From contig NZ_KI632511.1 in the NCBI RefSeq assembly GCF_000504285.1, positions 8,290,154 to 8,354,153 of the forward strand: a stretch of DNA of 64,000 bases, read 5' to 3'. Below are positions 1 to 40,189 of the stretch, in pieces (positions within the stretch are counted from its first letter, which is position 1; every line of letters begins with the position of its first letter). Position numbers and translations under genes: made by a program. Below the pieces are notes generated by a model. That model did not search any database, was not told where the DNA came from, and saw only the letters and a list, made by a program, of their open reading frames with translations. The DNA comes from Actinospica robiniae DSM 44927 (lineage in GTDB: Bacteria > Actinomycetota > Actinomycetes > Streptomycetales > Catenulisporaceae).

Positions 1-2
1 AC

Positions 3-611
3 TTCTCCGTCCTCGGCCAGGGCGGGACCGACTGGGCCGCGACCGGCGTGGCCATGACAAAGATCGACGACACTCACTACACCGCCACCGTTACCGCGAG
101 CGGCGCGGCGAGCCTGCAGTACAAGTACGACCTCGGCGGCGACTGGAACAACGTCGAGGAAACGGCCACCTGCGGCTACGTCGCCAACCGGTCCGTGACC
201 GTGAGCGGCACCGAGAACGACACGGTACTCAACTGGGCTGGCCCGAGTACCTGCGGCAACGCCCAGGCCGTCATCGACGTCACCGTCCCCTCCACCACCC
301 CGTCCGGCGACGAGGTGTACATCTCCGGCAACTTCTCCGCACTCGGCATCGGCATGTCCTCGGCGAACGACTGGTCCGCCGGGCTGTACCCGATGACGAA
401 GATCGGCACGAACCAGTGGCAGATCATCGTCCCCGCCGTGTCCGGCAGCACGTTGCAGTACAAGTTCGACCTCAACGGAACCTGGACGAACGTGGAGGAA
501 GGCAGCTCCTGCAGCTACGTCAACAACCGCTCCTTCACGTTCAACGGCGCCAACAGCTCGTACACGGCCAACGTCTCGGTCGTTGCCTGGGCTGGACTGA
601 ACGGCTGCTGA
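3..611 (+). CDS. C-terminal part of a secreted protein with tandem starch-binding-type (CBM20-like) modules, 5' truncated
   Basis: The frame is open from base 3 and runs off the left edge, so the true start is outside the window. The visible part, about 202 residues, holds two copies of one beta-rich module of about 95 residues. Each carries LQYK(Y/F)DL.G.W.NVEE followed by C.YV.NRS and ends with WAG...C. A short Thr/Ser/Pro linker joins them. The second copy begins VYISGNFSALG, which resembles the opening strand of CBM20-type starch-binding modules. Such modules sit at the C-terminus of secreted amylases and pullulanases, and the catalytic part would lie upstream. The paired cysteines in each copy suggest disulfides and export. 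The family is inferred from pattern only; another all-beta carbohydrate-binding family is possible. Confidence 0.6.
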   Translation, partial: FSVLGQGGTDWAATGVAMTKIDDTHYTATVTASGAASLQYKYDLGGDWNNVEETATCGYVANRSVTVSGTENDTVLNWAGPSTCGNAQAVIDVTVPSTTPSGDEVYISGNFSALGIGMSSANDWSAGLYPMTKIGTNQWQIIVPAVSGSTLQYKFDLNGTWTNVEEGSSCSYVNNRSFTFNGANSSYTANVSVVAWAGLNGC

Positions 612-630
612 CCGCGGCCTGGCAACGAAG

Positions 631-667
631 GATTCAGCCCCGTCGGCGTGCCCGGCGGGGCTGAATC
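631..667 (+). terminator. Hairpin terminator after the starch-binding protein
   Basis: The arms GATTCAGCCCCG and CGGGGCTGAATC are perfect complements of 12 bp around a short loop. The hairpin lies 19 bases after the TGA of the preceding gene and just before the MerR-type promoter. There is no long T tract, which is usual for actinomycete terminators. Confidence 0.8.
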
Positions 668-679
668 GTCGTATGCGGG

Positions 680-710
680 TTGACCCTCACGTGACGTGAT
701 GCCGGATAGT
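680..710 (+). promoter_or_regulatory. MerR-type promoter/operator with 19-bp spacer
   Basis: A TTGACC -35 box (680-685) and a GATAGT -10 box (705-710) are separated by 19 bp, the long spacer typical of promoters activated by MerR proteins through DNA distortion. Within the spacer is a near-perfect dyad, CCTCACGT-G-ACGTGATG, 7 of 8 positions matched. The expected transcription start is about 717-718. That coincides with the GTG start of the downstream MerR gene, so its mRNA is probably leaderless and the gene autoregulated. Confidence 0.65.
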
Positions 711-717
711 CGGGAGC

Positions 718-1833
718 GTGGAAGAGCACCTGACCGTGGGACGGGTCGCCGAACTGGCCGACGTGACCGTTCGAACCTTGCATCACTACGACGAGATCGG
801 CCTCGTCCAACCGTCCGCGCGGACCGCGGGCGGCTACCGGGCCTACTCGGCGGAGGATGTGGAGCGGCTTCGGGAGGTGCTGGCATTTCGGCGACTGGGC
901 TTCGGATTGCGCGAGATCGCAGACCTCGTGGACGACCCGGCCGCCGACGCGGTCGCGCGCCTGCGCCGGCTGCGCGGCCTGCTGCTGGAACAGCGCGACC
1001 GCGCCGCCGCCATGGTGACGGCCATAGACCGAGAACTGGAGGCACGGGCAATGGGGATCAAGACGACGCCGGAGGAGCAGCTGAAGCCGTTCGGCGCGCA
1101 GCTGTACGAGACCATCGGATCCGCCTATCCGGCGACGCGGCGCACCGAACCGCGGATCGCGGCAAAGGTCTGGGACGCGCTCGGAGACGCGCGCACGGTG
1201 CTGAACATCGGCGCCGGCACTGGTTCCTACGAGCCGGTCGGCCGCGACGTCACGGCGGTCGAGCCGTCCGCGGTCATGCGAGCACAGCGTCCGGCGGGCG
1301 CGGCGCTGTGCGTGGCCGCGGCGGCGGAGCGGCTCCCGTTCGAGGATCAGTCCTTCGACGCGGCGATGGCCTTCAGCACCGTCCACCACTGGCAGGACCC
1401 GATCGCCGGACTGCGCGAGATGCGGCGGGTGGCGCGGCGCGTGGTGGTGTTCACCCACGACGGCAGCGACACCGCATGGCGGCATCGCTTCTGGTTGAGC
1501 CGCGACTACCTGCCCGAGGTCTCGGAGCTGGTCGAAGGGCGGCCCTCGGTCGAGGAACTGGCCGGGTCGATCGGTGCGCGGATCGAGCCGGTGCTGATCC
1601 CGTGGGACTGCGCCGACGGGTTCTTCGAGGCCTACTGGCGCCGGCCCGAGGCATACCTGGAAGAACACGTACGCCGCGCGATGTCGGTGTGGACCCGGGT
1701 CGGGCCGCTGGCCGAACGGAGAGCGGTAGAAGGCCTGCGCGACGACCTCGCCACCGGCCGGTGGTCCGAGCGCAACCGCGAGCTCCTCGCCCTCGACGCA
1801 GCCGAGCTCGGCCTGCGGTTGCTCGTCGCCTGA
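718..1833 (+). CDS. MerR-family regulator fused to a class I SAM-dependent methyltransferase domain
   Basis: Residues 1-70 are a typical MerR winged helix (TVGRVAELADVTVRTLHHYDEIGL, with GGYRAYS), followed by a dimerisation helix to about residue 110. From about 125 the protein becomes a Rossmann methyltransferase: motif I IGAGTGSYEP (164-173), acidic VEPS (181-184), and LPFEDQSFD..MAFSTVHHW (205-224), as in Methyltransf_11 proteins. No stop or start signal separates the two halves. TipA- and BmrR-type MerR proteins carry an effector-binding C-terminal domain; here a methyltransferase takes that place, so it may sense SAM or a small-molecule substrate, or modify it. The GTG at 718 is chosen because it lies about 8 bp from the -10 box, and the HTH starts immediately. 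Confidence 0.85.
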   Translation: MEEHLTVGRVAELADVTVRTLHHYDEIGLVQPSARTAGGYRAYSAEDVERLREVLAFRRLGFGLREIADLVDDPAADAVARLRRLRGLLLEQRDRAAAMVTAIDRELEARAMGIKTTPEEQLKPFGAQLYETIGSAYPATRRTEPRIAAKVWDALGDARTVLNIGAGTGSYEPVGRDVTAVEPSAVMRAQRPAGAALCVAAAAERLPFEDQSFDAAMAFSTVHHWQDPIAGLREMRRVARRVVVFTHDGSDTAWRHRFWLSRDYLPEVSELVEGRPSVEELAGSIGARIEPVLIPWDCADGFFEAYWRRPEAYLEEHVRRAMSVWTRVGPLAERRAVEGLRDDLATGRWSERNRELLALDAAELGLRLLVA

Positions 1834-1909
1834 CCATCTCCATCCTCGCCCCGAGTGGGTGGGCGTGCGCCGGGCACCCGCCGCCGGACAGCCTCTAGAG
1901 TCAGGCGGT

Positions 1910-2647
1910 ATGTCCGAAGTCTTCCTCGGGGCCTGGCACACCGTCGTCCCGGAACGCGGCGAGCGGCACGGCCCGCTCGCTCCGCTGCTGCTCCTGCTCA
2001 CCCTGATCACCGGGTTCGTCGACGCCTACAGCTACCTGGTGCTCGGCCACGTCTTCGTCGCGAACATGACCGGCAACGTCGTCTTCTGCGGCTTCGCGCT
2101 CGCCGGTACCGGCGGGTTCTCGCTGCCCGCCTCGGTCACCGCTCTCGCCGCCTTCGCGGCCGGCGCGCTGATCGGGGGCCGGGTCGCGTCGGAGCGGCGC
2201 GAGCACCGCGGGCGGTTGGTCCACTTCGCGCTGACGATAGAGATGGTGCTGATCGCTGTCGCGTACGCGGTGGCCGGGAGCACCCACCCGGCCACCTCGG
2301 CGGGCAGCCGCTACGCGCTGATCTGCCTGCTCGGGCTGGCCATGGGCGTGCAGAACGCGTCCGCCCGCGCACTCGCGGTGCCCGACCTGACCACGACCGT
2401 GCTGACCATGACCATCACCGGCGCCAGCGCGGACAGCCGCGCGGCCGGCGGGCAGGGCGGCAAGACCGGACGACGGTTGCTGTCCGTGCTGACCATGTTC
2501 GTCGGCGCGTTGATCGGCGCGCTCGCAGTCCGGCACAGCCATCCGAGCGTGAGCCTTCTGGTCGCGCTCCTGCTGCTGCTCGGCGCCAGCGTGTTCACGT
2601 CGCGCCAGCTCGACTCGCGCGAGCCGTGGGTGAAGCCCGTGAGTTGA
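1910..2647 (+). CDS. DUF1275 (YoaK-like) integral membrane protein
   Basis: This 245-residue protein has about six hydrophobic segments. The first carries LITGFVDAYSYLVLGHVFVANMTGN, the hallmark of the DUF1275/YoaK family (Asp in TM1 and the NMTGN motif). A second conserved stretch is AMGVQNASAR....PDLTTTVLT. Members are inner-membrane proteins of unknown transport or signalling function. The ATG at 1910 is preferred over an in-frame start at 1859, because the upstream residues are not hydrophobic and do not resemble the family. It stands alone between the MerR fusion and the two-component genes. Confidence 0.85.
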   Translation: MSEVFLGAWHTVVPERGERHGPLAPLLLLLTLITGFVDAYSYLVLGHVFVANMTGNVVFCGFALAGTGGFSLPASVTALAAFAAGALIGGRVASERREHRGRLVHFALTIEMVLIAVAYAVAGSTHPATSAGSRYALICLLGLAMGVQNASARALAVPDLTTTVLTMTITGASADSRAAGGQGGKTGRRLLSVLTMFVGALIGALAVRHSHPSVSLLVALLLLLGASVFTSRQLDSREPWVKPVS

Positions 2648-2677
2648 GGCGCCGGCGGACGCTATACAGTCGCGAGC

Positions 2678-3424
2678 ATGGCAGAAGGCACGACCAGGAG
2701 CGGGGCCGCGATCAGGGGCGGGCCCGCCGGAGGCGCGGCGACTGCCGGCGGGCCGACGACCGTGCTGGTCGTGGAGGACGATCCTGGCATCGGCGGTTCC
2801 TTGGTGCGCGGCCTCGAGCGGGCCGGATACGTCGCTCGCGTCGTCGGCACCGGAGCGCAGGCTCTGGCCGCCGGGCCCACCGACGTCGTCCTGCTCGACC
2901 TCGGCCTGCCCGACTGCGACGGTGTGGATGTGTGCCGCGCGCTGGCTGGCCGTGGCAACACGGCAATCATCGTGGTCACAGCGCGCGGCGAAGAACATGA
3001 CCGAGTCGCCGCGCTCGACGAAGGTGCCGACGACTACTTGGTCAAGCCCTTCGGCCTGGCCGAACTGCTCGCCCGCATCCGGGCCGTCCTTCGCCGTGTC
3101 CAGCCCGCCGCGCCCAGCGCGGTCCAGCACGGCCCGCTCTCGGTGGACTCGCGGACCCGCAAGGTCACCATGCACGGAAGCGAGGTCGCGCTGACGCCGC
3201 GGGAGTTCGAGATTCTCGAGTGCCTGTCCGCGGACCCCGGCCGGGTGGTCACGCGGCAGGAGCTGCTGGAAAGGATCTGGGATGCGCACTGGTACGGCCC
3301 GACCAAGGTCCTCGACGTCCACGTCGCGGCGCTGCGTCGCAAGCTGGGCATAGCCGGGCTGATCGAGACGGTCTACGGTCGCGGCTTCCGCCTCGGCGAG
3401 GTCGACCCGGACTGCACGCCGTGA
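2678..3424 (+). CDS. OmpR/PhoB-family response regulator
   Basis: The receiver domain (residues about 27-140) has the acidic pocket E33/D34/D35, phospho-acceptor D74 in VLLDLGLP, T101 and K123 (LVKPF). It is followed by an OmpR-type winged helix with LTPREFEILE, VVTRQELLERIW and VLDVHVAALRRKLG. About 26 Gly/Ala-rich residues precede the receiver, longer than usual, so an internal start is possible. The stop overlaps the GTG of the histidine kinase by 4 bp (GTGA at 3421), so the pair is co-translated and should form a cognate two-component system. The target genes are not evident from the sequence. Confidence 0.92.
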   Translation: MAEGTTRSGAAIRGGPAGGAATAGGPTTVLVVEDDPGIGGSLVRGLERAGYVARVVGTGAQALAAGPTDVVLLDLGLPDCDGVDVCRALAGRGNTAIIVVTARGEEHDRVAALDEGADDYLVKPFGLAELLARIRAVLRRVQPAAPSAVQHGPLSVDSRTRKVTMHGSEVALTPREFEILECLSADPGRVVTRQELLERIWDAHWYGPTKVLDVHVAALRRKLGIAGLIETVYGRGFRLGEVDPDCTP

Positions 3425-15085: not shown

Positions 15086-15130
15086 CGCCGCTACGGAGAA
15101 AGCACACGCAGGACACGCTTAACGCGAGCT

Positions 15131-15533
15131 GATGATCGGCTGAGTGTTGGTTGGGGGTGGTGGTTTGCCGGGTCGTGGTGGGCGTGGTGGTCGTGGGCGG
15201 CCGCTTCGCGTCGCCCACGGTTCTTCTGTCCACCCGCCCACCCGTTGCGTTGGTGGGGTGGGCTGGAGTTTCAAGATCTCGCCTCCGGCGCGGGCCCTCC
15301 CTCGGAGAGAGTGCCGGGTTTGGGTGGGTGCTGTCGTTGGGAGGGCGGGCTGGGGTTGGGGGTGGTGGGGTTGCGGGGGTGGGTTCTCTCCTCGGCCGGT
15401 CCCCGGAGGCAATCAGGAACCTGTCGGGAGGTCAAGCGGCGGCGATTCTCCCTGGTGGTGGATTTTGCGTCGCGCCGCTTGACCTCCCGGCAGAACCCTG
15501 ACCGGGCTTCGCCTGCCCGACCGAGGAGAGAGC
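15131..15533 (+). repeat. Left arm of long inverted-repeat element 1, ending in a large hairpin
   Basis: The arm begins GATGATCGGCTGAGTGTT and is shared with 37083-37470 and, in inverse orientation, with 39300-39676 and 20047-20426. It holds a conserved stretch with CCCACCCGTTGCGT and CCCTCGGAGAGAG, then a roughly 150-bp hairpin (15383-15533). Several overlapping open frames exist here in all directions, but they are low-complexity Gly/Arg/Val and I regard them as non-coding. Confidence 0.8.
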
Positions 15534-16205
15534 CCACCCCCTGAGGGTCCGGTGCGAGCTGCGCTCGGGCCCGGGTCCCGGCCGGTGGCCCGGTCGCGCT
15601 CGATCCGGAAGAATCCTGCATCACCGTGATCCGGCCATCCCGGCTCTCGATCCGCGCGAAGGCGTCGGTGTTCCGGTCATGCCTGCGGTGGAATTCTGCA
15701 TCGCCCCGGTCGGATCCACCCGGTGCTCACGTACTGCACAGCATCGCGTGGCCCGGCCGCAACCCGAGGGGAAATCCTGCACCGCTTTCGGCCACACCCA
15801 TGACCTCATCTGCACAGCCATCCCGTCCACCGCCCCTCCCGTCACACGTCCCGATCCCCCGTACTCTTCCATGCTAGACGCCACCACCGACAAAAGCCGT
15901 GTACCTGACTTTTATTGGATAGGGAAGATTCCAGAGATTTCCGGGGAACTCGGGCGTGCTCCCCGGCGTTGAAGGTTCAGAGAAGAAAACAGCGGCTCAG
16001 AACGGCGATGCCAGATCCGACATCAGGCGTGGCCGGACCACCGGTCCCTTCGCATGGATTGGGAATGGTCGGATCAAGGTGATGCAAGATCGTGCATCGA
16101 GCGCGGCCGGGCCGCGGGACGGGACTCAGCCCGAGCGCAGCTCGCACTGGTCCCTCAGGGGGTGGGCTCTCTCCTCGGTCGGGCAGGCGAAGCCCGATCA
16201 GGGTT
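15534..16205. repeat. Core of element 1: derivative lacking the HNH gene
   Basis: This gene-free stretch matches the two flanks of the HNH gene in the intact element at 37.1-39.7 kb, but lacks the gene itself. It starts with the inner inverted repeat (CCCACCCCCTGAGGG.....GAGCTGCGCTCGGGCC), contains the block CTAGACGCCACCACCGACAAAAG (15864-15900) that lies upstream of the HNH start in the intact copy, and closes with the mirror of the inner repeat (16120-16205). Copies of a GAATTCTGCATC / AATCCTGCA motif are scattered through it. I see no plausible gene. Confidence 0.7.
16196..16205 (+). repeat. 10-bp direct repeat (target duplication), left copy
   Basis: GATCAGGGTT lies immediately before the first base of IS copy 1 and is repeated exactly at 20047-20056, immediately after IS copy 2. 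IS4-family elements typically duplicate 9-12 bp. The pair therefore marks insertion of the whole 16206-20046 segment as one unit. Confidence 0.8.
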
Positions 16206-16276
16206 CAATGCCACGTAGCCTGGGTTGATCATGTGTGTGGCCTGGGTGTTGGGGGGTGGTGTCGTAGTCTGGGTTC

Positions 16277-17528
16277 GTGTCGGTGGATAGCGCGGATCGC
16301 GGGCGTGTGGTGATGGATCAGGTTTCTCTCGGGGTGCTGGTCGAGGCGGTGCCGCGGTTCAAGGTGGATCAGGCCTTGAACGACGAGAAGATCAGGGCTT
16401 TGCGTTCGGATGGGAAGCTGCCGCCGCATGTGACGGCGTATCTGACGATGGCGATGGCGCTGTTCGCGCAGGATGCCGCGGAGGAGGTCGCCACGAGGGT
16501 GACCGGGTCGCTCGACGCGTTCGGGGTGTGGGACGCGTCCTGGGGCGTGCCGACCTCCTCCGGGATCACGCAGGCGCGTAAACGGTTGGGCCGTGATGTG
16601 CTGCGGCGGGTGTTCGGGTACTGTGCCGAGCCGGTCGCGGTTCAGGATGAGACCCGGGGCGCGTTCGCGTGCGGGTTGCGGGTGATGGCGATCGACGGGT
16701 TCGCGATGGACGTGCCCGACACGCCGGGCAACGTCGCGGAGTTCGGGTACTCCACGACCGGGGGCAATCCGTCGGCGTTCCCGAAGGTGCGGGTGGTCGG
16801 GATCACCGAGTGCGCCAGCCACTGCTTCGTCGACGCGCGTATCGGTCCGTACGACCACCGGGGAGCAGAGTCTGGCCGCGCCGCTGCTCGCGCGTCTGGA
16901 CCGGTCTTGGCTGCTCACGGCGGACCGCGGGTTCTACAGCTTCCCGGCCTTCTCGGACGCGGCCGAGACCGGGGCCGGGCTGCTGTGGCGGGTCAAGGCC
17001 GACCTGCGCCTGCCACCCCTGCGGGTACTCGAGGACGGCACGTACGTGTCCGTGGTGATCGACCGCGAGATCCGCGGCGCACGGCGCGAGGCGATCGTGC
17101 GGGCCGCCGAAGCCGGAGAAGAGCTCGACCCGCACCAGGCCCGCCGGGTACGGGTGCTCCAGTACGACGTGCCCGACCGCGCCGGGCCCGCCGGCACGGA
17201 ACTCATCTGCCTGATCACGAACCTGCTCGACCCGCAGAGCGCGCCGGCCGAGACCCTCGCGTACTGCTACCACCAGCGGTGGGAACAGGAGAGCGCGCAC
17301 GACCAGCTCGAGACCGACCTGCGCGGCTCCGGGCGCGTCCTACGCTCGAAGCTACCCGACCTGGTCTACCAGGAGGTGTGGGCCTACCTCCTGGTCCACT
17401 ACGCGATCAACGCGCTGATCTGCCGGGCCGCGACCGGCGCGGACATCGACCCGGACCGCGTCTCCTTCGTCAAAGCCGTGCGCATCGCGCGCCGTACCGC
17501 CACCGGTACCGCGCGCTTTTCCCCCTGA
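16277..17528 (+). pseudogene. IS4-family transposase, broken by a 1-base frameshift
   Basis: Translation from GTG 16277 follows the intact transposase of copy 2 up to ARIGPY. There the sequence reads CCGTACGACCACC instead of CCGTACACCACC, an extra G near 16850 that throws the frame. The remaining two thirds, including the second Asp and the Glu of the DDE site, continue in another frame to the TGA at 17526-17528. Other changes are the loss of one codon near the N-terminus and Lys for Arg in NDE(K/R)IRAL. The product is probably inactive, unless programmed frameshifting occurs. The intact copy argues against that. Confidence 0.85.
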
Positions 17529-17771
17529 ACAGATGAAAGCCCCCGCCGCCCGCGCCGCCGCGCAACTGACCGCACCCGCCGCACTCAACCCGCCCCGTCG
17601 CGAACGCACCTACCCCCGCGCCGTCAAACGCATCCGACACAACCCACACCGGGTGAAAAAGGCCGCTGATACCGGCATACGGCACCCGAACCCGCCCACC
17701 ATCCGAATCTTCCGCACCAACCCACCCGCCACCAGCGGCCGAACAAGATCAACATAAGCTACGTGGCATTG
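17529..17771 (+). other. Non-coding 3' end of IS copy 1
   Basis: About 240 bases between the transposase stop and the right inverted repeat hold no credible gene. The small frames here are proline- and arginine-rich, and the same sequence is present in copy 2 (18479-18721). Confidence 0.5.
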
Positions 17772-18478
17772 GTTCCTGATCGGGCTTCGCCTGCCCGACC
17801 GAGGAGAGAGCACGCCCCCTGGGGAGGGGGTCTGAGCTGCGCTCGGGCCGAGTCCTGTCCCGTGGCCCGGTCGCGCTCAGTGCGGAAGGATTCTGCATCA
17901 CCCTGATCCGAACATCCGATTCTCGATCCGCGCGAAGGCGCCGATGCCCGGGTCGCGACTGATGTGAAATCCTGCACGGCCCTCGTGCGATCCACCCCGA
18001 TCGCAGATCTCGCGGCAGAATCCCGCAGGCCGGCCGTGTCCGATGCGGAAGGATTCTGCATCGCCCTGGTCGGATCCACCCGGTGCTCCCGTGATGCGCA
18101 CGGCCGCGTGGCCCGGTCGCATCCCGAGAGGAAATCCTGCACCGCTTTCGGCCACACCCCTGATGCCACATGCCCAGGCATCCCGTCACCCCCCGTCACA
18201 ACTCCCGATCCCCGTACGCTTCTATACTAGACGCCACTACTGACAAAAGTCGTGAATCCGGCTTTCATTCGATAAGCAATAATTCTGGAGATTTCCGGGC
18301 ACTCGGGCGAACTCCCCGGCGTTGAAGAAGTAGAAAAGAAAAGAGCGACCCGGAACGGCGATGCAGAATCCGACATCAAGCGCGACCGAGCCACCGCACC
18401 CGGCCTGAGCGCAGCTCAGACCCCTCCCCAGGGGGCGTGCTCTCTCCTCGGTCGGGCAGGCGAAGCCCGATCAGGAAC
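17772..18478. repeat. Passenger segment: second gene-less relative of the HNH element
   Basis: This 707-bp segment between the two IS copies is bounded by inverted arms (GTTCCTGATCGGGCTTCGCC... and its complement). It parallels 15491-16205: inner repeat with GAGCTGCGCTCGGGCC, several AGGATTCTGCATC motifs, the block CTAGACGCCACTACTGACAAAAG (18218-18254), and a closing inverted repeat. No gene is seen. It looks like a second deletion derivative of the DUF222/HNH element. Confidence 0.7.
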
Positions 18479-20046
18479 CAATGCCACGTAGCTTATGTTG
18501 ATCTTGTTCGGCCGCTGGTGGCGGGTGGGTTGGTGCGGAAGATTCGGATGGTGGGCGGGTTCGGGTGCCGTATGCCGGTATCAGCGGCCTTTTTCACCCG
18601 GTGTGGGTTGTGTCGGATGCGTTTGACGGCGCGGGGGTAGGTGCGTTCGCGACGGGGCGGGTTGAGTGCGGCGGGTGCGGTCAGTTGCGCGGCGGCGCGG
18701 GCGGCGGGGGCTTTCATCTGTTCAGGGGGAAAAGCGCGCGGTACCGGTGGCGGTACGGCGCGCGATGCGCACGGCTTTGACGAAGGAGACGCGGTCCGGG
18801 TCGATGTCCGCGCCGGTCGCGGCCCGGCAGATCAGCGCGTTGATCGCGTAGTGGACCAGGAGGTAGGCCCACACCTCCTGGTAGACGAGGTCGGGTAGCT
18901 TCGAGCGTAGGACGCGCCCGGAGCCGCGCAGGTCGGTCTCGAGCTGGTCGTGCGCGCTCTCCTGTTCCCACCGCTGGTGGTAGCAGTACGCGAGGGTCTC
19001 GGCCGGCGCGCTCTGCGGGTCGAGCAGGTTCGTGATCAGGCAGATGAGTTCCGTGCCGGCGGGCCCGGCGCGGTCGGGCACGTCGTACTGGAGCACCCGT
19101 ACCCGGCGGGCCTGGTGCGGGTCGAGCTCTTCTCCGGCTTCGGCGGCCCGCACGATCGCCTCGCGCCGTGCGCCGCGGATCTCGCGGTCGATCACCACGG
19201 ACACGTACGTGCCGTCCTCGAGTACCCGCAGGGGTGGCAGGCGCAGGTCGGCCTTGACCCGCCACAGCAGCCCGGCCCCGGTCTCGGCCGCGTCCGAGAA
19301 GGCCGGGAAGCTGTAGAACCCGCGGTCCGCCGTGAGCAGCCAAGACCGGTCCAGACGCGCGAGCAGCGGCGCGGCCAGACTCTGCTCCCCGGTGGTGTAC
19401 GGACCGATACGCGCGTCGACGAAGCAGTGGCTGGCGCACTCGGTGATCCCGACCACCCGCACCTTCGGGAACGCCGACGGATTGCCCCCGGTCGTGGAGT
19501 ACCCGAACTCCGCGACGTTGCCCGGCGTGTCGGGCACGTCCATCGCGAACCCGTCGATCGCCATCACCCGCAGCCCGCACGCGAACGCGCCCCGGGTCTC
19601 ATCCTGAACCGCGACCGGCTCGGCACAGTACCCGAACACCCGCCGCAGCACATCACGGCCCAACCGTTTACGCGCCTGCGTGATCCCGGAGGAGGTCGGC
19701 ACGCCCCAGGACGCGTCCCACACCCCGAACGCGTCGAGCGACCCGGTCACCCTCGTGGCGACCTCCTCCGCGGCATCCTGCGCGAACAGCGCCATCGCCA
19801 TCGTCAGATACGCCGTCACATGCGGCGGCAGCTTCCCATCCGAACGCAAAGCCCTGATCCTCTCGTCGTTCAAGGCCTGATCCACCTTGAACCGCGGCAC
19901 CGCCTCGACCAGCACCCCGAGAGAAACCTGATCCATCACCACACGCCCGCGATCCACGCCAGAGTCCACCGACACGAACCAAGACTACGACACCACCCCC
20001 CAACACCCAGGCCACACACATGATCAACCCAGGCTACGTGGCATTG
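18479..20046 (-). mobile_element. IS4-family insertion sequence, copy 2 (intact)
   Basis: The 1568-bp element is in inverse orientation to copy 1, with terminal inverted repeats starting CAATGCCACGTAGC at both ends. The left flank is GATCAGGAAC and the right flank GATCAGGGTT. The two flanks share GATCAGG, and the same heptamer abuts every IS end in the window, pointing to preference for this repeat. Confidence 0.85.
18722..19975 (-). CDS. IS4-family DDE transposase, intact
   Basis: The 417-residue transposase has an IS4 N-terminal domain (VDQALNDERIRALRSDGKLPPHVTAY). The DDE catalytic core shows first Asp in VMAIDGFAMDVPD, second Asp in LLTADRGFYS, and the Y-(2)-R-(3)-E signature in YHQRWEQESAHDQLE. 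It catalyses cut-and-paste movement of the IS. It would also be able to mobilise the defective copy 1 and the whole composite, because the terminal repeats match. The GTG start is conserved in both copies. Confidence 0.92.
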   Translation of the reverse strand: MSVDSGVDRGRVVMDQVSLGVLVEAVPRFKVDQALNDERIRALRSDGKLPPHVTAYLTMAMALFAQDAAEEVATRVTGSLDAFGVWDASWGVPTSSGITQARKRLGRDVLRRVFGYCAEPVAVQDETRGAFACGLRVMAIDGFAMDVPDTPGNVAEFGYSTTGGNPSAFPKVRVVGITECASHCFVDARIGPYTTGEQSLAAPLLARLDRSWLLTADRGFYSFPAFSDAAETGAGLLWRVKADLRLPPLRVLEDGTYVSVVIDREIRGARREAIVRAAEAGEELDPHQARRVRVLQYDVPDRAGPAGTELICLITNLLDPQSAPAETLAYCYHQRWEQESAHDQLETDLRGSGRVLRSKLPDLVYQEVWAYLLVHYAINALICRAATGADIDPDRVSFVKAVRIARRTATGTARFSP

Positions 20047-20426
20047 GATCAGGGTTCTGCCGGGAGGTCAAGCGGCGCCATGCAGAATCGACCATCAGCG
20101 GAAACCACCGCCGCTTGAGCTCCCGGCAGGTTCCTGATTGCCTCCGGGGACCGACCGAGGAGAGAGCACACACCCGCAACCTCACCATCCCGAACGCCGG
20201 CCCGCCCCGCCAACGCCAGCACCCCACAGATCCCGGCAATCTCTCCGAGGGAGGGGCCTGCCAGCGGCATTTTTTGATCTTGAAACTGCAGCCGCCCCAC
20301 CAACGCAACGGGTGGGCGGGTGGTCAGACGAACCATGCGACGCGAAGCGGCCGCCCACACCACGACGACCACCCCGACCCGACTAGCCACCACGCCCACG
20401 CCCCACGAGCACTCAGCCGGGCATCA
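20047..20426 (-). repeat. Right arm of long inverted-repeat element 1
   Basis: This gene-free stretch is the mirror of the arm at 15131-15533. It begins with the right copy of the 10-bp direct repeat, forms the second half of a hairpin (CTGCCGGGAGGTCAAGCGGCG and its near-complement), and ends with the outer motif ACTCAGCCGGGCATCA, complement of TGATGCCCGGCTGAGT. The last bases supply the TGA stop of the WYL regulator. The left half of this hairpin is at 16166-16205, across the composite transposon. Confidence 0.75.
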
Positions 20427-21432
20427 ACTCCCAGTGGGCTGCCCCTGCTGGCGACGCAGGTGGGTCGGCAATGGCAGCGTTCAGCAGGACGGCAAGGCTC
20501 GTCATGGCTGCGCGCAGCTCGTCGCCGCCCTCGACGCGGAACGGGAACGGGATCCCGGCCAGCCACTCCTGCGCGTACATCGCCGTGTTCCGGGTGGTGC
20601 CGACCAGCACGCAGGACGCGTCGTCCAGCGGTTCCAGCCTTCCCATCGGCGGCCTGATGTACCGTGCGACCTCGGCGTGGGGCGCCGCGAAGACGACCCG
20701 CGTGGAGAATTCCCAGCCGGCGCCGAGGTTCTCCTCGAGCATGGCGACCGGATCGAGGTTCTCCGGCAGATCGAAGGTCCCCGCGATCGGCTCCGCCGTC
20801 TCGACGCGGTCGATCCGATAGGTGCGGATCGCGTTCGCGTGGTGGGAATGGCACAGCAGGTACCACCGGCCGTGGCGCACCACCACGGCCCAGGGGTCGA
20901 CGTCGCCCGCCCACGCGCGGCCGGATTCGCCGCGGTAGGTGAGGCGGACTCGGCGCCGCGCCGCCACCGCGTCGACCAGGACGCTGGTGGTGGCCGGGTC
21001 GGTCGGGGCGGATTCGCGGTCGGGGACGGCGGCGGTGTGCGCGCGCAGCGTTCCGGCCGGGCGGCCGATCCCGGCGGGCAGCGCCTGGATCACCTTGCCC
21101 AGCGCGGATCCCACGAGGTCGTCGGCGTCGATCGCGGCGGGCCGGCCGTCCAGGACGGCCATGACCAGCCCGAGCGCCTCCTCCTGGGTGAAGACGACCG
21201 GGGGCAGCCGGGTGCCGCGGCCGAGCCGGTAGCCGCCGTGCGGCCCGCGCACCGAGGCCACCGGGATCCCGGCCTCGCGCAGGATCTCGACGTACCGGCG
21301 GGCCGCGCGCTCGGTCACCCCGAGCCGGGCGGCGAGCTGATCGGCCGTGGTCACCGGCCGGTTCTGCAGAATCTCGAGGGTGCGCAGGGCACGCGCGGTC
21401 GGGCTGGGCGCGGCGGGCTCCGATCTCGGCAC
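20413..21432 (-). CDS. WYL-domain transcriptional regulator (YafY/DeoR-type HTH)
   Basis: This 339-residue regulator begins with a DeoR-like winged helix (RALRTLEILQNRPVTTADQLAARLGVTERAARRYVEIL, then GPHGGYRL). A WYL domain follows (WAVVVRHGRWYLLCHSHHANAIRTYRIDRV). WYL proteins sense small ligands, nucleotides or nucleic acids. It is divergent from an alpha/beta hydrolase gene (21552), with a 119-bp shared upstream region, so that hydrolase is a likely target. Its final residues and stop codon lie within the terminal motif of the inverted-repeat element, so the insertion may have altered the natural C-terminus. Confidence 0.88.
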   Translation of the reverse strand: MPRSEPAAPSPTARALRTLEILQNRPVTTADQLAARLGVTERAARRYVEILREAGIPVASVRGPHGGYRLGRGTRLPPVVFTQEEALGLVMAVLDGRPAAIDADDLVGSALGKVIQALPAGIGRPAGTLRAHTAAVPDRESAPTDPATTSVLVDAVAARRRVRLTYRGESGRAWAGDVDPWAVVVRHGRWYLLCHSHHANAIRTYRIDRVETAEPIAGTFDLPENLDPVAMLEENLGAGWEFSTRVVFAAPHAEVARYIRPPMGRLEPLDDASCVLVGTTRNTAMYAQEWLAGIPFPFRVEGGDELRAAMTSLAVLLNAAIADPPASPAGAAHWELMPG

Positions 21433-35819: not shown

Positions 35820-37073
35820 ATGCGCGTCGCGACCACGTCGGCGCCCGCCGAACCGGACCAGGCGGGGCAAACCGAACGCGGCCTGCCGACCCAGGTCAGG
35901 CTGCTGATCGCGGCCCGGGCGGTCAACCAGCTCGGCGCGTTCTCCCTCGCGTTCCTGACCGTGCTGCTCAGCCGCGACCTCGGCGCCGGGCTGGCCACGG
36001 CGGGCGCGGTCTCGGCGGCGTTCGGACTCGCCACCATCCCGAGCCGGCTGCTCGGCGGCCGCCTCGCCGAGCGGTGCGGCCCGCGCCGCACGATCCTGAT
36101 CGGGCTCCTCGGCTGCGCCGCCGCCCAGCTCGGCCTCGCCGCGGCGCCGGATCTGGCCCTCGCCGCCGTCTTCGCGATCGTTCTGGGCCTGGCCTTCGAA
36201 CTCTACGAGCCGCCCAGCCAGGCGATGATCGCCGACGCGGTGCGCCCCGCCGACCGGACCGCCGCCTTCGCGCTGCTCACCACCGCGCTCTCGGTCGGCA
36301 ATATGGGAGCAGGCCTCGTCGCCGATCTCGTCGGCCGCTCGAACCTGCGCTGGCTGTTCGTCGTGGACGCGGCCAGCTGCCTGGCCTGCGCGCTGCTCGT
36401 GCGCTGCTCGCTGGAGCCGGACGCCGCCAGGCCGCGCCGAGCCGGAGCGCCGAAGGAGTCCGGCTCCGGCGCTGGCTCCGGCACCACGTCGCCCTGGCGA
36501 GACAGGACTCTGCTGCTCGTGACGGCCGGCGGTACCGTCTTCGCGAGCATCTACATGCTGATCATCGTCGCGCTTCCGTTGTCCCTGGCCGGATACGGCC
36601 TGAACCCGGCGAGCGCCGGCCTGCTCATGGCCGCCTCGACGCTGACGCTCGTGGTGGTGCGTCCGGTGATGCGCATCCGCAGGATCGCCGAGCTGCCGGT
36701 CGGATCGATGTTCGCAGGCGGCTACGTGCTGATGGCGCTCGGCCTCGCCGGATTCGCCCTCGCGCACACATTGCCCACGCTGCTCGGCCCGACCGCGCTG
36801 ATCAGCATCGGCGAGCTGCTCGTGATGGGCCGGTCGCTCGCCCTAGTCAGCGACCTCGCGCCGCCCGGCGCCGCCGCCCGCTACCTCGCCGTGTACGGCC
36901 TGAGCTGGGGCGTCGCGACCTTCCTGGCGCCGCTGCTGAGCGCCTGGCTGCTCGCCGCCGGCGGCCCGGCGCTGCTGTGGTGGGTAGTGGCAGGGGTCTG
37001 TGTCGCCAACGCGCCCGCTTCGGCCCTGGTCGCGGGTCTTGCCGCGGGCCAGGGCTGCATAGAGCGTGCCTAG
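35820..37073 (+). CDS. MFS transporter (12 TM, MdtH/YceL-like)
   Basis: The 417-residue protein has about 12 hydrophobic segments. Between TM2 and TM3 is GGRLAERCGPRRTILIG, motif A of the superfamily; FELYEPPSQAMIADAVRPADRTAAFAL is typical of single-drug-type exporters. The ATG at 35820 follows GGGAGGG by 7 bases and is preferred over a start at 35763, which would overlap the divergent regulator's leader. The stop lies about 7 bp before the long inverted-repeat element. Function is export of an unknown compound, probably controlled by the CGNR protein. Confidence 0.88.
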   Translation: MRVATTSAPAEPDQAGQTERGLPTQVRLLIAARAVNQLGAFSLAFLTVLLSRDLGAGLATAGAVSAAFGLATIPSRLLGGRLAERCGPRRTILIGLLGCAAAQLGLAAAPDLALAAVFAIVLGLAFELYEPPSQAMIADAVRPADRTAAFALLTTALSVGNMGAGLVADLVGRSNLRWLFVVDAASCLACALLVRCSLEPDAARPRRAGAPKESGSGAGSGTTSPWRDRTLLLVTAGGTVFASIYMLIIVALPLSLAGYGLNPASAGLLMAASTLTLVVVRPVMRIRRIAELPVGSMFAGGYVLMALGLAGFALAHTLPTLLGPTALISIGELLVMGRSLALVSDLAPPGAAARYLAVYGLSWGVATFLAPLLSAWLLAAGGPALLWWVVAGVCVANAPASALVAGLAAGQGCIERA

Positions 37074-37319
37074 TACCGAATCGATGATCGGCTGAGTGTT
37101 GGCGGGGTGTAGTTGGCTTGTCGGGTTGGGGCGGCCGCTTCGCTTCGCCCACGGTTTCGTTTGCCCACCCTGCCCACTCGTTGCGTTGACGGGGTGGGCT
37201 GGGGTTTCAAGACAAAAATCGCCGCTGGCAGGCCCTTCCTCGGAGAGAGGCCGGGGTCTGTGGGGTGCTGGCGTTGGTGGGGCGGGTTGGTGTTTGGGGT
37301 GGTGGGGTTGCGGGGGTGT

Positions 37320-37470
37320 GCTCTCTCCTCGGTCGGTCCCCGGAGGCAATCAGGGACCTGCCGGGAGGTCAAGCGGCGGTGACTTGGGCTGATGCTCGAT
37401 TTTGCATCGCGCCGCTTGACCTCCCGGCAGAACCCTGATCGGGCTTCGCCTGCCCGACCGAGGAGAGAGC
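37320..37470. repeat. Large hairpin, left side of the HNH element
   Basis: GCTCTCTCCTCGGTCGG at one end pairs with CCGACCGAGGAGAGAGC at the other. The inner arms CTGCCGGGAGGTCAAGCGGCG and CGCCGCTTGACCTCCCGGCAG are perfect 21-bp complements. The middle contains GATGCTCGATTTTGCATC. Similar hairpins occur at 15383-15533 and 39300-39450, and one is split by the composite transposon. Confidence 0.9.
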
Positions 37471-37649
37471 CCACCCCCTGGGGAGTGGTGTGAGCTGCGC
37501 TCGGGCCCGGGTCCCATCCCGTGGCCTGGCCGTGCTCGATCCGGAAGAATCCTGCACCGCCTGTATGGGACCGCTTCTCTTCGGCTGCGTGGTCCGGGAG
37601 CCGTGCCCAGCAGTGTCCGGCAGCCCGGGGGCCGATACAGGATCGTGCA
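37471..37649. other. Gene-free inner repeat of the HNH element
   Basis: The stretch holds the inner inverted repeat and motif copies AGAATCCTGCACCGCC and GGATCGTGCATCACC. It forms the 3' side of the HNH gene. No gene is seen. Confidence 0.5.
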
Positions 37650-38921
37650 TCACCGCTCCTGGTGGACGGTGGTGTGATGCTTCGCGCAGTACAGGCGGAG
37701 GTTTCCCACTCTCGTCTCTCCGCCGTGCGCGAACGGCACGACGTGGTGGGCGTGCAGGGCGAACGTGAGGGGGCGGTCACAGCCCGGGTAGGTGCAGTAC
37801 CGGTCGCGCCATGCGAGAAACCCGCGCTGCGCGGGCGAGGCCAGACGCGCCCGGGGGTCACCGTCCAGCGCGATCCCGTCGAAGGTGCCCGTACGCCCGT
37901 CGGTCACCAGCTCGTGGCGCCGCGGATCACCGCGCTTGGGCAGGCGCCCGGCCGGAACCAACGCCCCGAACACCGTGCGCGCACAGCCGGCGGGGATCTC
38001 CGTGTGCACGGCAGGATCCTTCATGCCCGCCGCGGGCACGGCAGGATTCTTCACGGCCGCCGCGGGTGCGGCAGGCTTCTTCACGGCCGCCGCGGGTGCG
38101 GGAGGCTCGATGGTGACGGCGAGCGCGGGCAGGGAGAAGTGGGCGTGGCGCTGCTCGGGCGGGGCATCGAGGAAGACCTGTGCGAGCCGGGTGACCGCTT
38201 CCGCGTTCATCTGCTCGGTGCTGCGCACATCCTCCGGTACGATCTCTCCGCCGTCGAACTGCCGGGTCCGGATCATCTCGGCGACCTGCAGATCGATCGC
38301 GGCCTGGAAAACGGCGCCGCGCACCGGATCGAGCAGGATCTCACACCGGTGCATCTGACCCTCCCCGCACGTGCTGATCCGGGCGAAAGAACGCTCGCGC
38401 TCCCGCGCGTGACGCGCCTCGATCGAACCCGGCGCGACTTGCTCCTCGAGCACCCGTACCCGTTCCAGCCCGGCCCGCGCACCGCGCTCCCGGGTCACCT
38501 CGAGCGTCTTGGCGGCTTCCTCCGCGGGGTCCAGGCCCGTCGCCCGCACCGCCTTGACCGTGCGCGCCAACGCCCGCGCCGAATCAGGCCCGATCATCCC
38601 GGAGCACAACTGCGCCTCCACCCCCGGCAGCCGTGCCAGCAGCCGGGCGTCGTGCGCCAGCGCGCGGGCCCGGCCCTCGGTCACATCCAGCACCGTCCCC
38701 AGCCACGGACCCACACCCCCACGCGCGATACCCAGCCGGTCGCCCTCACCGACCAGCGCCAGCAGCATCCCCTGCAGCGCCTGCGCCGCCCGGCCCACCT
38801 CCACGATCGCCTCACGCACCGCATCAACCCGCCCCACATCATCCCCACCCGCCCGCGCACGCTCGAGCACCCCCCGCACCACGCGGGACATCGACGCGAT
38901 CTCCACAGTCACCCCGTCCAC
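37650..38921 (-). CDS. DUF222 / HNH endonuclease-domain protein (13E12 repeat family)
   Basis: The 423-residue protein has a long helical DUF222 region (residues about 30-270; LCSGMIGPDSARALARTVKAV and CEILLDPVRGAVFQAAIDL are characteristic). An Ala/Pro/Lys repeat linker (PAAAVKKPAAPAAAVKNP) is followed by a C-terminal HNH nuclease: YCTYPGCDRPLTFALHAHHVVPFAHGG, then NLRLYCAKHHTTVH. Both Cys pairs, the catalytic His (HHV) and the final His are present, so it should be competent. Proteins of this family are encoded on repeated units in actinobacteria, with unproven function. It lies inside nested inverted repeats. Confidence 0.9.
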   Translation of the reverse strand: MDGVTVEIASMSRVVRGVLERARAGGDDVGRVDAVREAIVEVGRAAQALQGMLLALVGEGDRLGIARGGVGPWLGTVLDVTEGRARALAHDARLLARLPGVEAQLCSGMIGPDSARALARTVKAVRATGLDPAEEAAKTLEVTRERGARAGLERVRVLEEQVAPGSIEARHARERERSFARISTCGEGQMHRCEILLDPVRGAVFQAAIDLQVAEMIRTRQFDGGEIVPEDVRSTEQMNAEAVTRLAQVFLDAPPEQRHAHFSLPALAVTIEPPAPAAAVKKPAAPAAAVKNPAVPAAGMKDPAVHTEIPAGCARTVFGALVPAGRLPKRGDPRRHELVTDGRTGTFDGIALDGDPRARLASPAQRGFLAWRDRYCTYPGCDRPLTFALHAHHVVPFAHGGETRVGNLRLYCAKHHTTVHQER

Positions 38922-39299
38922 GACACCCTCCCCTCACCGGCCCCGACATCCCCGAACACTTCTATTCTAGAGCCCGCCACTGACAAAAGGCGTGTATACG
39001 ACCCTTGCGTGGTAAAAGAATCAGGGATATTCCCGGGAACTCGCGGATGCTCCCGGGCGTTGAAGTAGGAGATGGGAGCGGTACCGCAACCGGCGATACA
39101 GGAATCTACGTGATGCAACATCCTGTATCGAGCACAGCCGAACCACCGGACACCACACCACAAGGCTGAGCGAACCAGGCAGCCGAAGAGGAGCGTCGGT
39201 CGGGTCAGGGCGGTGCAGGATTCTTCCGCACCGAGCGCGACCGGGACACCGGCCGGGACCCGGGCCCGAGCGCAGCTCACACCACTCCCCAGGGGGTGG
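38922..39299 (-). promoter_or_regulatory. Upstream region of the HNH gene, conserved in gene-less copies
   Basis: The 378 bp before the HNH start contain a locally AT-richer block, CTTCTATTCTAGAGCCC.....CACTGACAAAAGG (38959-38990), also found at 15864-15900 and 18218-18254 in copies that have lost the gene. Further upstream are GATGCAACATCCTGTATC and GTGCAGGATTCTTCC, related to the short motif repeated in the other copies. It probably contains the promoter. Its retention without the gene suggests another role too. Confidence 0.5.
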
Positions 39300-39676
39300 G
39301 CTCTCTCCTCGGTCGGGCAGGCGAAGCCCGATCAGGGTTCTGCCGGGAGGTCAAGCGGCGCCATGCACAATCGACCATCAACGGAAACCACCGCCGCTTG
39401 ACCTCCCGGCAGGTCCCTGATTGCCTCCGGGGACCGACCGAGGAGAGAGCACACACCCGGCACCCGACCACCCCGAACACCAGCCCGCCCCGCCAACGCA
39501 AGCACCCCACAGACTCCGGCATCTCTCTCCGAGGGAAGGCCCGCGCCGGAGGCGAAAGCTTGAAACCCCAACCCGCCCCACCCACGCAACGAGTGGGCGG
39601 GGCGGACAAACGAAACCGAGGGCGACGCGAAGCGCCCGCCCCAACCCAACGACAACCGCTCAGCCGATCATCAATC
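39300..39676. repeat. Right arm of the HNH element with large hairpin
   Basis: This is the mirror of 37080-37470. The hairpin spans 39300-39450. The outer part reads toward CGCTCAGCCGATCATCAATCG and provides the stop codon of the cupin gene. No gene is seen. Confidence 0.85.
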
Positions 39677-40189
39677 GTATGAGACCCAGAAGTTGTCGTG
39701 CATCAGGGAATTGCGTTCTCGGGCGGCGCGGGTCTCTTCGGTGTCCGGCTGCCCGGCGAGGGCGGCCAGGGTCTCGAAGTACTGCTCGCGCGGGCCGCCG
39801 GGGGCGAACAGGATGAGCATCGACGCCTCCTGACCCGACTCGTTGCGGAAGGCGTGGATGCCGCCCTCCGGCACGTAGAGGTAGTCGCCGGCCGTGGCGT
39901 CCACCCACTTCTCGCCGTTGAACAGGCGCACCGTGCCGGCCAGGATGAAGAAGGACTCCGCGATCGTGCGGTGGAAGTGCGGGGCCGGGCCGCTCGGCTG
40001 CGCGCCGAAGTCCCAGCGGTACAGGCCGAACTTGCCGTCCGTGCTCGCGCCGGTGGCCAGGTAGTGCACCCGGTTGCCGCTCTGATAGGTCAGATCCGGC
40101 GGAGCGTCGGCGGCGCGGAGGCGGGCGCTGACCTCGCCGCCCTCTCCGGTGTAGCGGGGCTCCGGATACGACGTCATGGGATAGGTCAT
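39671..40189 (-). CDS. Cupin-domain protein
   Basis: The 172-residue protein has a cupin barrel: PHFHRTIAESFFILAGTVRLF (motif 1 with HxH and Glu) and GDYLYVPEGGIHAFRNES (motif 2 with the fourth metal His). It probably binds a divalent metal and may be an enzyme or sensor of unknown substrate. The start at 40189 is one of two close ATGs (also 40177). It lies 7 bp after the LLM oxidoreductase and probably forms an operon with it. The stop codon falls within the end of the inverted-repeat element. Confidence 0.82.
   Translation of the reverse strand: MTYPMTSYPEPRYTGEGGEVSARLRAADAPPDLTYQSGNRVHYLATGASTDGKFGLYRWDFGAQPSGPAPHFHRTIAESFFILAGTVRLFNGEKWVDATAGDYLYVPEGGIHAFRNESGQEASMLILFAPGGPREQYFETLAALAGQPDTEETRAARERNSLMHDNFWVSYD

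Follow-up and report, generated by a model that had tools for sequence, protein, structure and literature searches.

A gene for a DUF222-HNH nuclease that stands in nested long inverted repeats of the Actinospica robiniae genome raises the question of whether the whole is a mobile unit and, if so, which enzyme moves it. It lies in the window, the whole 64,000-nucleotide stretch of DNA that was analysed, and the initial annotation had read it as a REP13E12-like mobile unit, resembling an autonomous element whose only enzyme is the nuclease. As described below, the mobile unit was confirmed, and an enzyme acting from outside proved a likelier driver than the nuclease.

The element and its relatives in the window

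The element is 2.6 kb long, with inverted arms of about 570 bp around one intact HNH gene. All the parts claimed for it were found (arms, hairpins, inner repeats and HNH residues), with hairpins of 167 nt, and the bounds first given, 37080-39676, were refined to 37071-39682 (+/-3 nt, no strand assigned) by a terminus model over 96 element ends and by the open reading frames. The left terminal repeat, of IS630 type, occupies 37071-37096 on the plus strand (TAGTACCGAATCGATGATCGGCTGAG) and the right one 39658-39682 on the minus strand (TCATACGATTGATGATCGGCTGAGC, outermost bases diverged). Next to them lie the long arms, 37120-37582 (plus) and 39188-39650 (minus), which pair over 340 nt at 89% identity (37243-37582/39188-39527) and over 92 nt at 87% (37120-37211/39559-39650). 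They contain the hairpins at 37312-37478 (63 pairs) and 39292-39458, neither assigned to a strand. The inner inverted repeat regions, likewise without strand, are located at 37517-37653, with GATGC/ATCCTGCATC-type motifs, and at 39110-39150; the repeats themselves are 37517-37540/39127-39150 and 37633-37653/39110-39130. The nuclease gene (423 aa) is encoded on the minus strand at 37650-38921. Two flanking genes converge on the element: the TAG stop codon of an MFS transporter gene (37071-37073) overlaps its left TA, and the TGA stop of a cupin gene is placed inside its right end.

Two relatives elsewhere in the window had been described as gene-less, which was correct, and as separate elements, which was not: 15120-20436 is one element whose right hairpin is interrupted by an IS4, the core of a second element and an inverted IS4. 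Of this second gene-less element only the core is present (17773-18476), between two inverted IS4-type copies; neither relative is assigned to a strand. The two copies with the enclosed core (16206-20047) together split one hairpin and resemble a composite transposon at the preferred site of the IS. In the elements at large, ISs of IS4, Mutator/IS256-like, IS110 and rve types recur at a few arm positions (about 115-131, 359-363 and 371-385 of the model), as if hairpins were landing sites; IS-bearing copies include those at 16206-17773 and 18476-20047 of the window and at loci L058, L065, L077, L045, L051, L066, L075, L031, L068 and L136.

A mobile family with a fixed target

The genome of Actinospica robiniae is a single 9.92-Mb contig, classed with Actinospica acidithermotolerans in one genus. 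A 21-nt half-hairpin pattern matches it 385 times (194 + 191) against 5 (3 + 2) for the reversed control, which at four matches per element corresponds to about 97 elements; this total is a motif count, and about 80 elements were read individually as loci. Both forms supposed by the initial annotation, gene-bearing copies and gene-less deletion-type derivatives, occur genome-wide, and copy-number variation of the arm elements was likewise borne out. Both ends are present in 52 elements: 32 are compact and gene-less (1.0-1.6 kb), three measure about 2.6 kb and the others are enlarged by ISs. The HNH gene is carried by eight elements, with an intact frame in five; the other elements seen are gene-less derivatives of about 1.45 kb, many of them IS-enlarged, in which the promoter region and a remnant of the HNH gene start remain ahead of the right arm. 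One element (L051) is found close to the beginning of the chromosome contig, at a distance of 0.1-3 kb (positions 1-3000). In two related genomes, draft contigs break off within hairpins or arms (L157, L160, L162, L163, L164), and the copy numbers counted for these genomes are therefore probably too low.

The ends are sharp: unrelated flanking DNA leads up to a YTA, after which each end reads NNGCGANTTGATGATCGGCTGRG. Of the 52 elements, 41 have the boundary TA at one end and 40 at the other, against 0-3 at shifted positions; 32 have it at both, and joining their flanks restores YTAR in all 32 (21 CTAG, 6 CTAA, 4 TTAG, 1 TTAA), a context in which about 6% of the TAs of the neighbouring DNA stand. 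A four-base duplication with YTAR on both sides, as in IS5-like elements, was rejected because in more than 40% of ends TA is followed by a pyrimidine. The comparison of empty and filled sites, proposed at the outset, yielded two loci at which same-genus genomes have the flanking genes and lack the element, in alignments too diverged for direct reading of a single TA; no empty site was found in the stretches of the Actinospica robiniae genome examined. Two copies, L084 and L088, are 99.3% identical and have different flanks. The family is mobile, as follows from the orthologous sites without the element and from near-identical copies in different surroundings, and with a median identity of 84% among compact copies it is old, with some recent movement.

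Flanking genes read toward the element at 71 ends and away from it at 27, and in 26 of those 71 flanks the boundary TA forms the first two bases of the stop codon, as would be expected if insertions were mostly tolerated where the TA belongs to a stop codon. Regulatory or terminator repeats that never move, and so are no transposons, might display the same strong bias to positions downstream of genes; such an explanation is nevertheless very improbable in view of the empty sites, the near-identical copies with different flanks and the fixed YTAR boundary.

Which enzyme moves the element

When the terminus pattern was searched in genomes of the same taxonomic family, it occurred at either end of a 1.13-kb IS of a same-genus genome (L278, 1539-2673). 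This IS has perfect 27-bp repeats (TAATGCCGATTGCTGATCGGCTGGG...) and two ORFs with a winged HTH and PF13358 (DDE_3), features that place it in the IS630 family, and of its first 25 nt, 20 are those of the element consensus TAGTGCGAATTGATGATCGGCTGAG. IS630 is known for CTAG/TA targeting (PMC2170065; Tenzen & Ohtsubo 1991 cited there). The elements thus share with IS630/Tc1-mariner transposons and their MITE-like derivatives the TA at both boundaries and the CTAG/YTAR target, and with the same-genus IS the terminal repeats of about 25 bp. They differ from MITE-like derivatives in size (1.3-1.6 or 2.6 kb against a few hundred bp), in arms of about 570 bp with 167-nt hairpins unrelated to the IS, and in a DUF222-HNH cargo with a damage-type promoter motif; at 1.0-1.6 kb, or 2.6 kb with a gene, they fall outside the classical MITE, which is short (<~600 bp) and has no coding capacity.

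No DDE transposase is present inside the element, where DUF222-HNH is the only ORF, and IS630 copies elsewhere are broken, so the element appears to be non-autonomous. The five DDE_3 (IS630-type) loci first found in the genome have no ends that match the elements better than chance; a later search with the IS of the relative recovered the matching IS630 in Actinospica robiniae as broken pieces only (79-82% identical, 3.983-3.985 Mb), for which reason the family may now be largely static. Two identical IS630-type ISs at 8182296 and 8461885 (L208, L209; ends CTAGTGCCGTATCAGG) differ from the element ends past the first bases, and one of them lies in or beside element L134.

The family is probably a non-autonomous transposon with IS630/Tc1-mariner-type ends that is moved in trans, by a transposase perhaps lost here, since ends and target match IS630 and the local IS630 is broken. 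An IS630-family DDE transposase would bind the ~25-bp terminal repeats, cut the element out and paste it into a TA within YTAR, preferably CTAG and often at or just past the stop codon of a flanking gene. A gene-less derivative has become the most abundant form. Four points stand against this explanation. The cognate IS630 is broken, although two copies are as much as 99.3% identical. Only two DUF222 lineages of this genome have recognisable IS630-type ends, the main one and the divergent L121/L122 lineage (ends TAATGCTGATTGATGCTCGG), and the ends of L120, L123 and L124 match them no better than background. The alignments at the empty sites are too diverged for the single TA to be read directly. 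Furthermore, a simple passenger would have no need to stay with hairpin arms over the divergence described below.

An alternative is a nuclease that is itself the mobilising enzyme, recognising arms or hairpins, cutting at YTAR and moving both types of copy. In favour of this, it is the sole gene of the element, under purifying selection (dN/dS between copies 0.14-0.23, about 0.17), DUF222 lineages here and in Actinospica acidithermotolerans pair it with cognate hairpin arms or remnants, and the gene-less derivatives retain the arms. This role is improbable, as the element has the ends and target of an IS630-family IS, the DUF222-HNH loci of other genomes are armless, and the predicted structure of the protein matched no transposase fold (Foldseek against the PDB returned nothing significant, the sensible matches being HNH nucleases only). 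Mobilisation in trans by an IS630/Tc1-mariner transposase is therefore the likelier of the two.

The nuclease and its hairpins as probable cargo

The protein of the window matches PF01844 (E=1.7e-6) and keeps H392, H393, N407 and H416 together with a C376/C381/C412/H415 pattern. The plan of the REP13E12 / DUF222-HNH proteins, a DUF222 domain with a C-terminal HNH, is shared: PF02720 scores above the cut-off in the homologues L111, L112, L114 and L140 and below it in the window protein, and the HNH is present in all DUF222-HNH proteins compared. The likeness to IscB and to HNH homing or RNA-guided nucleases consists of the HNH motif with weak NCBIfam and PDB similarity; the match to IscB is confined to about 45 HNH residues, with no other IscB region found. 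A PADLOC search gave no matches.

The minus strand carries TTGTCAGTGGCGGGCTCTAGAAT at 38964-38986, some 43 nt ahead of the GTG start codon of the gene; this sequence matches the PafBC/RecA-NDp promoter motif tTGTCRgtg-N8-TAnnnT (PMC5656591). Searched as TTGTC[AG]-N11-TANNNT in 964 kb of loci, the motif has 94 of its 96 matches near elements (a few are copies of one IS), and it is retained in 31 of the 32 compact gene-less copies. At motif level this suggests control of the nuclease gene by DNA damage, and since the motif also precedes 4 of 18 armless DUF222-HNH genes of other genomes, such control would seem to predate the arms. In M. tuberculosis a RecA-dependent response to mitomycin C is described for five putative HNH endonuclease genes (PMC8151990).

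The other DUF222-HNH genes of the genome are 38-42% identical; those of L120-L123 each lie in their own arm pair with the same hairpin design, and L124 has one diverged hairpin half. In Actinospica acidithermotolerans the arms and hairpins are arranged as in Actinospica robiniae, and a profile search of genome contigs with six aligned proteins found three loci, all of that species. The gene thus stays paired with covarying hairpin arms down to about 40% protein identity. No flanking inverted repeats were detected at 18 DUF222-HNH loci of other genomes (two belong to the same taxonomic family; three are truncated by contig ends), and other same-family genomes (e.g. L172, L257) have one distant, armless homologue each. 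The REP13E12 (13E12) repeats of mycobacteria are multicopy and carry DUF222-HNH, the protein family of the window gene. The arms distinguish the window element from the 18 other loci, and because those are armless, the REP13E12-like reading fits the gene and not, as far as these 18 loci show, the architecture.

The 167-nt hairpin folds 9-10 sd better than shuffles, both as RNA and as DNA, and an Rfam search with it gave no matches. Changes on both sides were observed at 29 of 63 hairpin pairs (13 hairpins, all lineages), a number reached by none of 500 shuffles, with slid controls at 2-9; to judge from these alignments, the hairpins evolve by compensatory change. Mispairs in 120 aligned hairpins are about equally G-T (161) and A-C (178), so the constraint looks to be at DNA level, or due to palindrome correction, and RNA selection on one hairpin strand is not favoured. 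The nuclease gene and the hairpins are presented here as a cargo that is long-standing in the family, and we infer that the two form a cognate pair, probably at DNA (cruciform) level.

Compatible with movement in trans, and adding a role for the cargo, is the tentative proposal that IS630 ends provide mobility and nuclease and arms form a selfish cassette, in which damage-induced HNH cleavage at extruded cruciforms would lead to recombination or gene conversion that spreads and homogenises the arms. The gene-hairpin pairing over deep divergence, the two-sided changes and the near-equal mispairs agree with it, as do the arms, more conserved between gene-bearing and gene-less copies (85-91% identical) than the interior promoter region (73-77%), and the frequent gene conversion among REP13E12 loci of M. 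tuberculosis (PMC13061034); however, palindrome correction in replication might likewise produce two-sided changes, with no selection involved. Rather unlikely, though conceivable, is a self-maintaining cassette of nuclease and cognate DNA hairpins: DNA damage would induce the enzyme, which would recognise the hairpins extruded at every copy and so spread or homogenise them, and either the IS630 ends would serve as an acquired vehicle or the HNH protein itself would transpose.

What is new here is a high-copy transposon family with a DUF222-HNH nuclease cargo under a PafBC/RecA-NDp-type motif, paired with covarying hairpin arms. For a non-autonomous family with IS630 ends and a preference for gene ends, some 97 copies in a single genome make a heavy load. 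Many actinobacterial genomes encode DUF222-HNH proteins, and their carriers, the REP13E12 repeats, have been described without a defined biological function (PMC13061034). A lineage whose gene has remained with large covarying hairpins supplies a candidate substrate for DUF222-HNH.
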